Source of the DNA: Streptomyces olivoverticillatus
GTDB lineage: Bacteria; Actinomycetota; Actinomycetes; Streptomycetales; Streptomycetaceae
Direction of reading: 5' to 3'
Length of the DNA stretch: 64,000 bases
Assembly (NCBI RefSeq): GCF_014203555.1
Contig: NZ_JACHJH010000001.1
Coordinates: 854,013 to 918,012 of the forward strand
The notes under the pieces were generated by a model. That model was not told the origin of the DNA. It did no database searches and worked only from the letters and a program-made list of their open reading frames with translations. Positions 19,599-49,340 of the stretch are shown here, in pieces (the stretch's first letter is position 1; each line of letters starts with the position of its first letter). Both the position numbers and the translations under genes were made by a program.

Positions 19599-19671
19599 GC
19601 GCTCGTAGCTTAACGGATAGAGCACTTGACTACGGATCAAGAGGTTGCAGGTTCGAATCCTGCCGAGCGCA
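19599..19671 (+). tRNA. tRNA-Arg (anticodon ACG)
   Basis: A full cloverleaf can be drawn. The acceptor stem is GCGCTCG with CGAGCGC, the discriminator is A, and the D-arm contains TAGCTTAACGGATAGAGCA. The anticodon stem CTTGA/TCAAG encloses the loop CTACGGA, so the anticodon is ACG (A34 read as inosine). The T-arm contains GGTTCGAATCC. CCA is not encoded. It reads the CGU/CGC codons. Arg tRNA genes are common integration sites, but no integrase or duplicated 3' end is visible here. Confidence 0.97.
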
Positions 19672-46875: not shown

Positions 46876-48246
46876 TCACCCCGTCACCGCCGCCAGGTCG
46901 ATCGCGGCGGCGACGCGCGTCGCGATGTCCTCCGCGTAGGTCGCGTCCGCCCGGTCGAACGGACGCCGCGACGGGCCCCGCAGGAACGTCACCACCCCCA
47001 CCGTCCGGCCCCGGCTGCGCAGGGCCGTGGCCAAGGCATGGCGGGTGCCCTCCGGCCATTTGCGGACCGCCGCCCAGCCGTCCGTACGGTCCGAGACCGC
47101 GCGCACCGAGCCGCAGCGCTCGACCGCCTGCAGGGCTGGATGGCCGTCCGCGTACGGGACCGGGAGGCCGCCCGCGGGGGCCACCGGGGCCTGGCCGGGG
47201 GCGCCGGCGGGCGTCGCCGCGGCGCGGATCAGCCGGATCGGGCTCTCGGGGACCGCCTCCGGCTTCGACAGCAGGTCGATCAGCGCGTGGTCGGCGAACC
47301 CCGCGAGCGCGAACTCCATGTAGAGGGCCGCCGCCTCCATCGGGTCCTCGCACTCCGCCACCGCCCGCCCCGCCCGGTGCAGCTGACTGCCCCTGAACCG
47401 CAGCCGTGCGCTCTCCTGCTCCACCAGCCGCGTCTTCGTCACGTCCAGGAACAGCCACGCCACCCCCAGCGGCACCGGCTCCTCCACCAGCGGCGTCGCC
47501 AGCCGCAGGAAGCCGCTGCGCCAGCAGCGCCGCTCCGGCACGGGCGTGGGGCCGCCGCCGGGGTCGCGCACCGTCACCCACAGCTCGGTGGGCGCGGGCG
47601 GCGCCCCGGACGCCAGGACGTGCTGCAGGGCGCCCTCCAGCTCCTCCGCACCCTGTTCGAGGAGGTCGCCCAGGGGACGCCCCAGCACGGCCGTACGGCT
47701 GCTGCGCAGGGCGCGGGCGGCGTGCGCGTTGGCGAGGGCGGGGCGCAGGTCCGCGTCGACGAGCACCACGCCCCACGACGCGTCGCCGAACAGCGCCTCG
47801 CTCAGCGCGACCGAGCGTTCCAGGTCGATCTGGGTGTGCACCTCGCTGAACGCGCAGTACACGCCCGACGGCCCGCCGTCCGCCCCGGGCACGGCGGAGG
47901 ACTGCATGCGCACGAGGATCCGCCCGCCGTCCTTGGTGAGCAGCGCGAACTCGTCCACCTGGCGGCGGCCCGGCGCCTTCATCACACCCAGCAGCCGCTC
48001 GGTGGCCTCCTCGGCGTCCGCCTTGCGCAGCGCCCATCCGGCCAGGCCCCGCCGCCCCACGGCCTCCTCCGCCGACCAGCCGAGTATCCGCTCGGCCTCG
48101 CGGTTCCAGTGGGTGACCGTGCCGTCGGCGTCGAAGGCGCACAGCGCGGCGTCCATCCCGTCGAGGAGGGCCGCGAGCAGGTCGTGGTCGTCTGTGTCCG
48201 GGTCCGCCCCGTGGCGGGCGGGGCCGGACTGGTGTGGAGCGGTCAC
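46876..48246 (-). CDS. PAS/GAF sensor protein without output domain (456 aa)
   Basis: Two PAS domains (AALLDGMDAALCAFDADGTV with ERILGWSAEEAVGRRG; and EALFGDASWGVVLVDADLRP) are followed by a GAF-like region with RTVGVVTFLRGPSRRPFDRA. It ends at DLAAVTG without phosphatase, kinase or helix-turn-helix. In Streptomyces, PAS-GAF modules usually feed a PP2C phosphatase (PF07228), so this may be a truncated or stand-alone sensor. The start at 48246 gives a His/Asp-rich leader (MTAPHQSGPARHGADPDTDD). Confidence 0.8.
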   Translation of the reverse strand: MTAPHQSGPARHGADPDTDDHDLLAALLDGMDAALCAFDADGTVTHWNREAERILGWSAEEAVGRRGLAGWALRKADAEEATERLLGVMKAPGRRQVDEFALLTKDGGRILVRMQSSAVPGADGGPSGVYCAFSEVHTQIDLERSVALSEALFGDASWGVVLVDADLRPALANAHAARALRSSRTAVLGRPLGDLLEQGAEELEGALQHVLASGAPPAPTELWVTVRDPGGGPTPVPERRCWRSGFLRLATPLVEEPVPLGVAWLFLDVTKTRLVEQESARLRFRGSQLHRAGRAVAECEDPMEAAALYMEFALAGFADHALIDLLSKPEAVPESPIRLIRAAATPAGAPGQAPVAPAGGLPVPYADGHPALQAVERCGSVRAVSDRTDGWAAVRKWPEGTRHALATALRSRGRTVGVVTFLRGPSRRPFDRADATYAEDIATRVAAAIDLAAVTG

Positions 48247-48373
48247 GGGGTACCCCCTGCTGGACGCGTCTGCGTGTCACGCATGCCCTGCATGTCCTGC
48301 ACGAGCGGCATTCAACTCGACCCCGGCGGGCACCACACCGTCTTCCGCGAAATCAGTGCCCTCGGAAATACGG

Positions 48374-48402
48374 TTGTGTGGCCCGGAGCCGGTTCCTAGG
48401 CT
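48374..48402 (+). promoter_or_regulatory. promoter of a small transcript opposite pdxH
   Basis: TTGTGT (48374-48379) and TAGGCT (48397-48402) are separated by exactly 17 bases, matching the vegetative sigma pattern. A GGGAGGTGG ribosome-binding site (about 48419-48427) and ATG (48436) follow. The direction is opposite to both flanking genes. Confidence 0.65.
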
Positions 48403-48435
48403 GTGAGGCACACGAGAAGGGAGGTGGTTCGGAGC

Positions 48436-48474
48436 ATGATTTCTTTCCGGACGCGTGAGGTGACTGCGGGCTAG
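48436..48474 (+). CDS. 12-codon ORF MISFRTREVTAG
   Basis: ATG at 48436 follows a strong GGGAGGTGG and reads MISFRTREVTAG before TAG. ATT and TCT codons are uncommon here. The ORF is flanked by a canonical promoter and a structured RNA, so it is more likely a leader or regulatory micropeptide than a chance frame. I recognise no homologue with certainty. Confidence 0.5.
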   Translation: MISFRTREVTAG

Positions 48475-48556
48475 CGCCCGTCGTCGCGTTACAGCGCAAC
48501 GCCGGGTCCCGAGGCCGTTCGGCCATGGGGAAGCCGGCCAATCCCAAGCAGTCACC

Positions 48557-48633
48557 CGATCCGTGGGCCGCCGAGTCGTCCGCTCGGCACCGGCGCGCCG
48601 TCAAGGCGCGGCCGGTAGCGGGCCCACGGATCG
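48557..48633 (+). ncRNA. candidate structured RNA, three-way junction
   Basis: P1 pairs 48557-48569 with 48621-48633 (13 perfect pairs). P2 pairs 48570-48575 with 48583-48588 (six pairs, seven-base loop). P3 pairs 48589-48594 with 48611-48616 and 48595-48599 with 48605-48609 (11 pairs, one bulged G, loop GTCAA). P2 and P3 stack directly on P1, and AGCG closes the junction. It lies 83 bases after the 12-codon ORF and ends before the convergent pdxH stop. The fold also exists on the other strand, so orientation is inferred from the promoter. Confidence 0.6.
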
Positions 48634-48674
48634 TCTGCGTTCTCCGCCGTGTTGCTGACGGGTCCCGGGCGGCC

Positions 48675-49340
48675 CTACGGGCAGAGCCGCACGGTCCGCC
48701 AGCCGCCGTCGTCGGTGCGCACGTACCGCAGCCGGTCGTGCAGCCGGTTCTCCCGGCCCTGCCAGAACTCCGCCGTCTCCACCGTCACCCGGAAGCCGCC
48801 CCAGTGCGCCGGCACCGGCACGGGCTTGTCCTGCGGATAGCGGGCGGCCATCAGGGCGTACGCCGCGTCCAGCTCGGCGCGCGAGCCGACCACCGTCGAC
48901 TGCTCGCTCGCCCAGGCGCCGATCTGCGAACCGTAGGGGCGGGAGCGGAAGTAGGCGGCGGTCTCCTCCGGGTCCACCCGCTCGGCCGTACCGGTGACGA
49001 CGACCTGACGGGTCAGCGGATACCAGGGGAAGAGCAGCGAGACGTGCGGGTTCTCCGCGATGTCCCTGGCCTTGCGGGAGCCGTAGTTGGTGAAGAAGAC
49101 GAAGCCGCGCGGGTCGAAGCCCTTCATCAGCACCGTCCGCGAACTGGGCCGTCCGGCGGCATCCGCCGTGGAGACGACCATCGCGTTGGGCTCGTGCATT
49201 CCGGTTGCCGCGGCCTGGTGGAACCAGCGCGCGAACTGTTCGTACGGGCTCGCGGCCAGATCCGTCTCCGCGAGACCCTCGGAGCGGTAGTGGGCGCGCA
49301 TGGCGGCGGGGTCGAGTTCGTCGGCGTGGGACACGCGCAC
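48675..49340 (-). CDS. pdxH: pyridoxamine 5'-phosphate oxidase (221 aa)
   Basis: The FMN-binding split-barrel fold has [60 protein letters not shown] and the C-terminal [20 protein letters not shown]. It oxidises pyridoxamine or pyridoxine 5'-phosphate to pyridoxal 5'-phosphate. GTG at 49340 ([11 protein letters not shown]) or the GTG two codons later gives the expected length; the open frame further upstream runs into the promoter. Its stop is followed by the candidate antisense RNA. Confidence 0.93.

Follow-up and report, generated by a model that had tools for sequence, protein, structure and literature searches.

A twelve-codon reading frame and long-range helices predicted in the actinobacterial small RNA Ms_IGR-5

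The Ms_IGR-5 RNA (Rfam RF02471) of Streptomyces olivoverticillatus is a small plus-strand RNA gene with its own predicted promoter. We analyzed it in a 64,000 nucleotide stretch of DNA (assembly GCF_014203555.1, contig NZ_JACHJH010000001.1, positions 854,013 to 918,012), hereafter called the window. Comparison with homologues shows an RNA family with a predicted 12-codon ORF, complementarity to the 3′ tail of 16S rRNA and the candidate helices P1, P2, PA and PB, the last two being covarying long-range helices that would tie codons 8–11 and 5–6 to the 3′ domain. Our model, to which we give an even chance, is that Ms_IGR-5 is a free-standing translation-responsive RNA that would capture a 30S subunit and refold when its micro-ORF is translated. 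From the comparative features we infer 30S capture, slow initiation, gating of the fold and an effect in trans.

Table 1. Predicted elements of the Ms_IGR-5 gene (positions in the window)
Element	Positions	Strand	Details and basis
Promoter	48374–48402	+	−35 TTGTGT 48374–48379, 17-bp spacer, −10 TAGGCT 48397–48402; sequence and homologues
Ms_IGR-5 small RNA (RF02471)	48410–48636	+	87.6 bits; 48410 is model position 1, presumed first base
16S-tail-complementary segment, contains the Shine-Dalgarno	48415–48430	+	13 Watson-Crick and 3 G-U pairs, all 16 free-tail bases
ORF, 12 codons (MISFRTREVTAG)	48436–48474	+	TAG stop 48472–48474; stop and start conservation across 151 loci
PB 5′ arm, CGGACG, codons 5–6	48448–48453	+	pairs with the P2 loop
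PA 5′ arm, GGTGACTGC, codons 8–11	48459–48467	+	covariation
PA 3′ arm, GCAGTCACC	48548–48556	+	covariation
P1 5′ arm	48557–48569	+	13 pairs with 48621–48633; single-sequence fold, genus conservation
P2 hairpin	48570–48588	+	48570–48576 with 48582–48588
PB 3′ arm, CGTCCG	48577–48582	+	within the P2 hairpin; last base also closes P2
P3 hairpin	48589–48616	+	48589–48599 with 48605–48616, one bulge; length variable in the genus
P1 3′ arm, probable transcript end	48621–48633	+	fold, genus conservation; mapped 3′ end in S. avermitilis (available text of PMC8780764)

An Rfam scan placed RF02471 on the plus strand with a score well above the gathering score of 45 (E 4.7e-18 for the whole window), and the model was matched in full, from position 1 to 184. 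The only other family to exceed its cut-off in the window was tRNA, at 19599–19671. The initial annotation had described the transcript as unannotated and had proposed an Rfam scan; the scan assigned the RNA to an existing family. The draft genome of S. olivoverticillatus contains a single copy. At E values up to 0.001, the family was found in 196 of 199 Streptomyces genomes, in 249 of 394 genomes sampled from the class and in 48 of 246 genomes drawn from the phylum, with mycobacteria and Streptomyces both among the carriers. Of the 48 phylum matches, 23 pass the cut-off; 31 come from outside the class and score lower. Since 145 of the 394 class genomes gave no match at the threshold used, Ms_IGR-5 appears to be dispensable in some lineages. 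A looser pattern, used without a control on positive genomes, gave no matches in 25 genomes that had no family match (22 of the 145 negative class genomes and three negative genomes of the genus). Phage origin was rejected, as a strict pattern gave no matches in viral contigs.

The Rfam entry is typed as an sRNA gene, and no ORF was named in the output. Ms_IGR-5 reportedly originated in a study of M. smegmatis with heterologous Hfq. The available part of PMC4109619 describes that study and does not name IGR-5. The RNA was detected again in M. smegmatis in a cold-shock study (excerpt of PMC10454040). RNA-seq support is given as “yes” for S. lividans in the part of PMC8079986 that we consulted, and the start and the end of the S. 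avermitilis homologue have both been mapped (PMC8780764, in part). The S. coelicolor RNA scr4389, named in an excerpt of PMC8388888, may be a counterpart. The available text of PMC4974804 describes ribosome protection of the homologues in M. abscessus and M. smegmatis, and its authors remark that a footprint is seen on most characterized E. coli ncRNAs as well. Ms_IGR-5 was not mentioned in the portions consulted of PMC3828370, PMC4046766, PMC3765725, PMC11678152 and PMC4681348. The literature that we searched, which did not extend to the founding paper of Li et al., yielded nothing on the ORF, the 16S complementarity or the helices, and no function turned up in it. Thus, the transcript is already known, and its anatomy is not met in the sources searched.

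The promoter proposed in the initial annotation, with its 17-bp spacer, was present as described. Of 115 non-redundant homologues, 111 have a TANNNT that begins at −13 or −12, and 88 have TTG at −37 to −35. A consensus scan of positions 47900–49200 found no promoter and no terminator. We also observed an A-rich patch resembling an UP element upstream of the −35 hexamer; positions −45 to −41 are A in 40–84% of the 115 homologues, and the patch lies at 48365–48369 in the window.

The three-way junction of the initial annotation also held up. Positions 48410–48640 have a computed folding energy of −134.2 kcal/mol, with a z of −5.56, and 200 shuffled sequences all folded less well; this result and the RF02471 match bear out its view that the fold exceeds chance. 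The optimum fold contains P1, P2 and P3. In 26 non-redundant sequences from the genus, ten pairs of P1 and five of P2 were kept throughout, with compensatory changes in P1; three consensus pairs of P3 were kept in 20–22. All of the pieces that it described lie where it had placed them. It missed the match to the 16S tail and both long-range helices.

Homologues were compared in two sets. The first contained 151 loci, including the window's own and two places that were taken twice (L109/L132 and L123/L134). For the helix, promoter and 16S counts these were reduced to 123 by k-mer similarity and then to 115 by removing eight truncated or odd loci by hand (L084–L090 and L127). The second set was fetched by pattern from named genomes and gave at least 120 matches, 105 of them distinct, with species overlap with the first set possible. 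The pattern fixes parts of codons 5–11, but neither the start, the stop nor codons 2–4.

The ORF noted in the initial annotation is strongly conserved. In the window, GGGAGGTGG occupies 48419–48427, followed by the ATG at 48436. When the 151 loci were anchored on GAGGTG with no stop demanded, a stop was present at the expected codon in every one (TAG in 126, TGA in 22 and TAA in 3), and neighboring offsets from −6 to +5 carried none. With an anchor that required a stop, and with starts sought after any in-frame stop, 142 of the 151 loci had a canonical start (ATG 58, TTG 51, GTG 33), giving an ORF of 12 codons in 132 loci, 13 in 6 and 14 in 4. The remaining nine either lacked a clear start or had ATT, ATC or CTG; in L022, L143–L145, L147, L148, L150 and L151 one of these three codons occupies the start position in the same frame. 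Over the seven codons before GAG, stops were found in 0/151 loci in the ORF frame, as compared to 90/151 and 136/151 in the other two. Three of the 151 loci contain an in-frame stop farther upstream, after the Shine-Dalgarno sequence but ahead of these seven codons, so that not every locus has a frame that stays open as far back as the Shine-Dalgarno sequence. The second set gave the same picture: among the matches listed, 105/105 had the stop and 104/105 the start, and stops in codons 2–4 numbered 0 in the ORF frame versus 70 and 55 in the others. TTG, an unusual start for such genomes, was the commonest in this set (71/105 among the matches listed). The start lies 10–12 nt after GGAGG in 105 of 109 cases. 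The comparative signal for a translated ORF, a feature of dual-function sRNAs, is strong, and it is joined by the footprints in mycobacterial relatives described in the consulted part of PMC4974804, although ribosome protection proves little, being common among E. coli ncRNAs.

The segment upstream of the ORF would pair with the entire free tail of 16S rRNA. The 16S end was GGAUCACCUCCUUUCU in L152 and L153, and its first 14 bases were recovered in seven of seven genomes; the position of the mature end is one that we assume by homology. No 16S tail was found for comparison in the S. olivoverticillatus draft genome. Applying this single tail to all 115 sequences and counting G-U as a pair, we found 16 contiguous pairs in 101. 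The match ends at the presumed mature 16S end in 101 of the 115, extends further in two and is one short in 12. In the window, the end of the complementary segment (48427–48431) has an alternative partner in the GGAC within codons 5–6 (48448–48453), with which it can form a local hairpin around the start codon. This hairpin is present in the optimum fold and would exclude both the local 16S pairing and PB.

The ORF is linked to the 3′ domain by PA and PB. Standard pairs were formed in 991 of 1035 cells for PA and in 600 of 690 for PB, and neither total was matched in 2000 within-family shuffles. Extending the count to 11 columns for PA and 7 for PB, 86% and 75% of cells pair, whereas only 26–56% pair when the helices are slid by 1–3 columns. 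Among the changes in PA, C-G replaces T-A in 16 sequences, and C-G itself gives way to T-A in 14 and to G-C in 8, with the bases of codons 10–11 changing jointly with the PA 3′ arm. In PB, four core pairs are almost invariant. On its inner flank both sides have changed in 50 sequences, and at least two Watson-Crick types occur inside six taxonomic families. The outer PB positions fail in 53/115 and 31/115 sequences (pairing in 54% and 73%). Among the second-set matches listed, the PA 3′ segment had the expected form in 89/105, and the PB extension fitted in part: G was met by C in 13/17, A by T in 17/30, and T by A in 14/42 and by G in 8/42. Because PB crosses P1, it would form a pseudoknot.

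Computed folds were less uniform for PA. At least six PA pairs appeared in 72 of 115 optimum folds and in 75 when the 5′ segment was held unpaired. Counting against the model, PA is missing from the optimum fold of the window's copy and can be imposed at a cost of 0.6 kcal/mol; when the 5′ segment of this copy was kept from pairing, the probability of PA fell from 0.42 to 0.08. The structure of the Rfam entry has neither PA nor PB, since it leaves the P2 loop and the 3′ arm of PA unpaired. Two loci depart from the usual layout. Both are minimal forms: in L116 the two PA anchors start only 34 bases apart, whereas L090 keeps the ORF but appears to lack almost the whole domain between them.

In our model, the 5′ segment would capture a 30S subunit by pairing with the whole free 3′ tail of its 16S rRNA, and the captured subunit would then initiate at the 12-codon ORF. 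Initiation would probably be slow, because the start codon is 10–12 nt from GGAGG and is often TTG or GTG. In the untranslated RNA, codons 5–6 would form the 5′ arm of PB with the P2 loop, and codons 8–11 would form the PA arm with GCAGUCACC directly before the P1 domain. During translation of the ORF, the ribosome would open first PB and then PA, and the stop codon is just past PA. Judging by the size of a ribosome footprint, PB would come within reach of a ribosome placed at the start codon, and by the time that it stood at the stop codon PA would already be open. The RNA would therefore have two states, folded when untranslated and open when translated, with 3′ segments hidden or exposed according to ribosome supply or translation rate. 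The very strong Shine-Dalgarno sequence, long spacing, weak starts and codon-made arms would suit an RNA that retains a 30S subunit and senses whether it proceeds to translate.

In the window the RNA sits between the start of a PAS/GAF gene (48246, reading leftward) and the pdxH stop (48675), with no overlap with either coding region. Neighbor calls were crude, and the proteins scanned were 20 of the 64 downstream and ten upstream. Those downstream were of the PNPOx/pdxH kind in four cases, of the THAP4/nitrobindin kind in five and of other kinds in 11, two of which were unrecognized; the ten upstream were equally mixed. The THAP4/nitrobindin-type domain, which is heme-binding, is encoded beyond the RNA in L002, L024, L028, L104 and L126. 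By the same crude calls, 64 of 67 loci had a next gene; 31 of these genes converge on the RNA and 33 run in its direction. Because the neighbors are mixed, the RNA appears to be a gene of its own, and its regulatory effect would most likely be exerted in trans. Attenuation of a downstream gene was rejected because none is conserved and pdxH converges in the window.

An independent gene with mixed neighbors is also what would be expected of an ordinary trans-acting antisense sRNA, in which a conserved single-stranded stretch near AAUCCCAAGCAGUCACC pairs with mRNAs and the ORF merely protects the RNA or gives a second product. Part of the stretch before the PA 3′ arm is indeed conserved in the alignment. 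However, this explanation, which we consider unlikely though the strongest of the alternatives, leaves unaccounted for the near-fixed ORF length, the match to the 16S tail and the pairing of the PA 3′ arm with codons 8–11.

The extent of the 16S match suggests another alternative, a pure 30S decoy in which the 16-base duplex occupies free subunits and lowers initiation elsewhere, with translation of the ORF incidental. The computed duplex has a median of −29.5 kcal/mol, versus −8.7 to −10.7 kcal/mol for Shine-Dalgarno strings of 5–7 bases, and other full matches are few. Searching ten genomes with the full wobble pattern gave 44 sites, comprising the RNA gene in 10/10, 30 sites of the exact 16S form, which we assumed to be 16S genes after reading two, and four others; a backward control of the pattern gave ten. 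A 12-base match is commoner, with 4 to 28 sites per genome including 16S and the RNA. Incidental translation would leave the start, stop and frame unconserved, and we regard a decoy as improbable. Also counting against our own model is the use of extended Shine-Dalgarno sequences as the norm in some bacteria, as described in the accessible part of PMC13009471.

Conservation of the start, stop and frame would be expected of a micro-mRNA whose product is the 12-residue peptide. Among 101 non-redundant ORFs of 12 codons, 98 have Thr at residue 6, and all 101 have Glu at residue 8 and Val at residue 9. By contrast, residues 2–4 vary widely, and some 200 bases of structured RNA would not be required to make a peptide. 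PA contains or adjoins the codons for Glu and Val, and codons 10–11 covary with its 3′ arm. Because the invariant codons coincide with helix arms, the peptide is disfavored as the main product, and this explanation stands next in order, with little probability; conservation in codons 5–12 may be at the RNA level only. The weakest explanation, that of the initial annotation, in which the RNA is antisense to or interferes with its neighbors, notably pdxH, is very improbable: convergence on pdxH was borne out here and a pdxH-type gene lies downstream in four of 20 cases, but antisense control of pdxH is not supported, given the unconserved neighborhood and the position of the RNA between genes, as 16 of the 20 downstream proteins differ and fewer than half of the next genes (31/64) converge.

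The translation-responsive model can be extended, more tentatively, to a phylum-wide ribosome sensor that would read the level of free 30S subunits through its match to the complete 16S tail, hold them in slow initiation at the micro-ORF, refold upon translation and regulate in trans. If so, Ms_IGR-5 would stand in the same relation to the 30S subunit as 6S and Ms1 do to RNA polymerase, and would represent RNA-based control that acts on, or is exerted by, the small ribosomal subunit. The predicted anatomy turns an “sRNA of unknown function” into testable statements about the start codon, the bound 16S bases and the competing helices, and it predicts that function should depend on translation and not on the peptide.

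Several known RNAs share parts of this anatomy. tmRNA is structured, has a short ORF and long-range pairings, and meets the ribosome. Ms_IGR-5 resembles it in the first three respects, whereas its ORF has its own Shine-Dalgarno sequence and start codon, and the Rfam scan of the window gave no match to the tmRNA family. Leader-peptide attenuators contain a short ORF whose translation opens RNA helices. As in these attenuators, the codons of the Ms_IGR-5 ORF would be the arms of RNA helices (PA and PB); unlike them, Ms_IGR-5 is not followed by a conserved gene within its transcript. An E. coli example of such attenuators and regulatory uORFs is described in the consulted part of PMC12121999. Small RNAs carrying a short ORF are also known, and Ms_IGR-5 is like VcdRP and Yfr6 in this respect, going by the available portions of PMC8672173 and PMC2864571. 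Those two are known here by their short ORF, whereas the features of Ms_IGR-5 are codons predicted to serve as helix arms and an ORF length near-fixed across many families. We rate the RNA in the window as a member of RF02471 and its predicted anatomy as a variant of the short-ORF regulatory RNAs.
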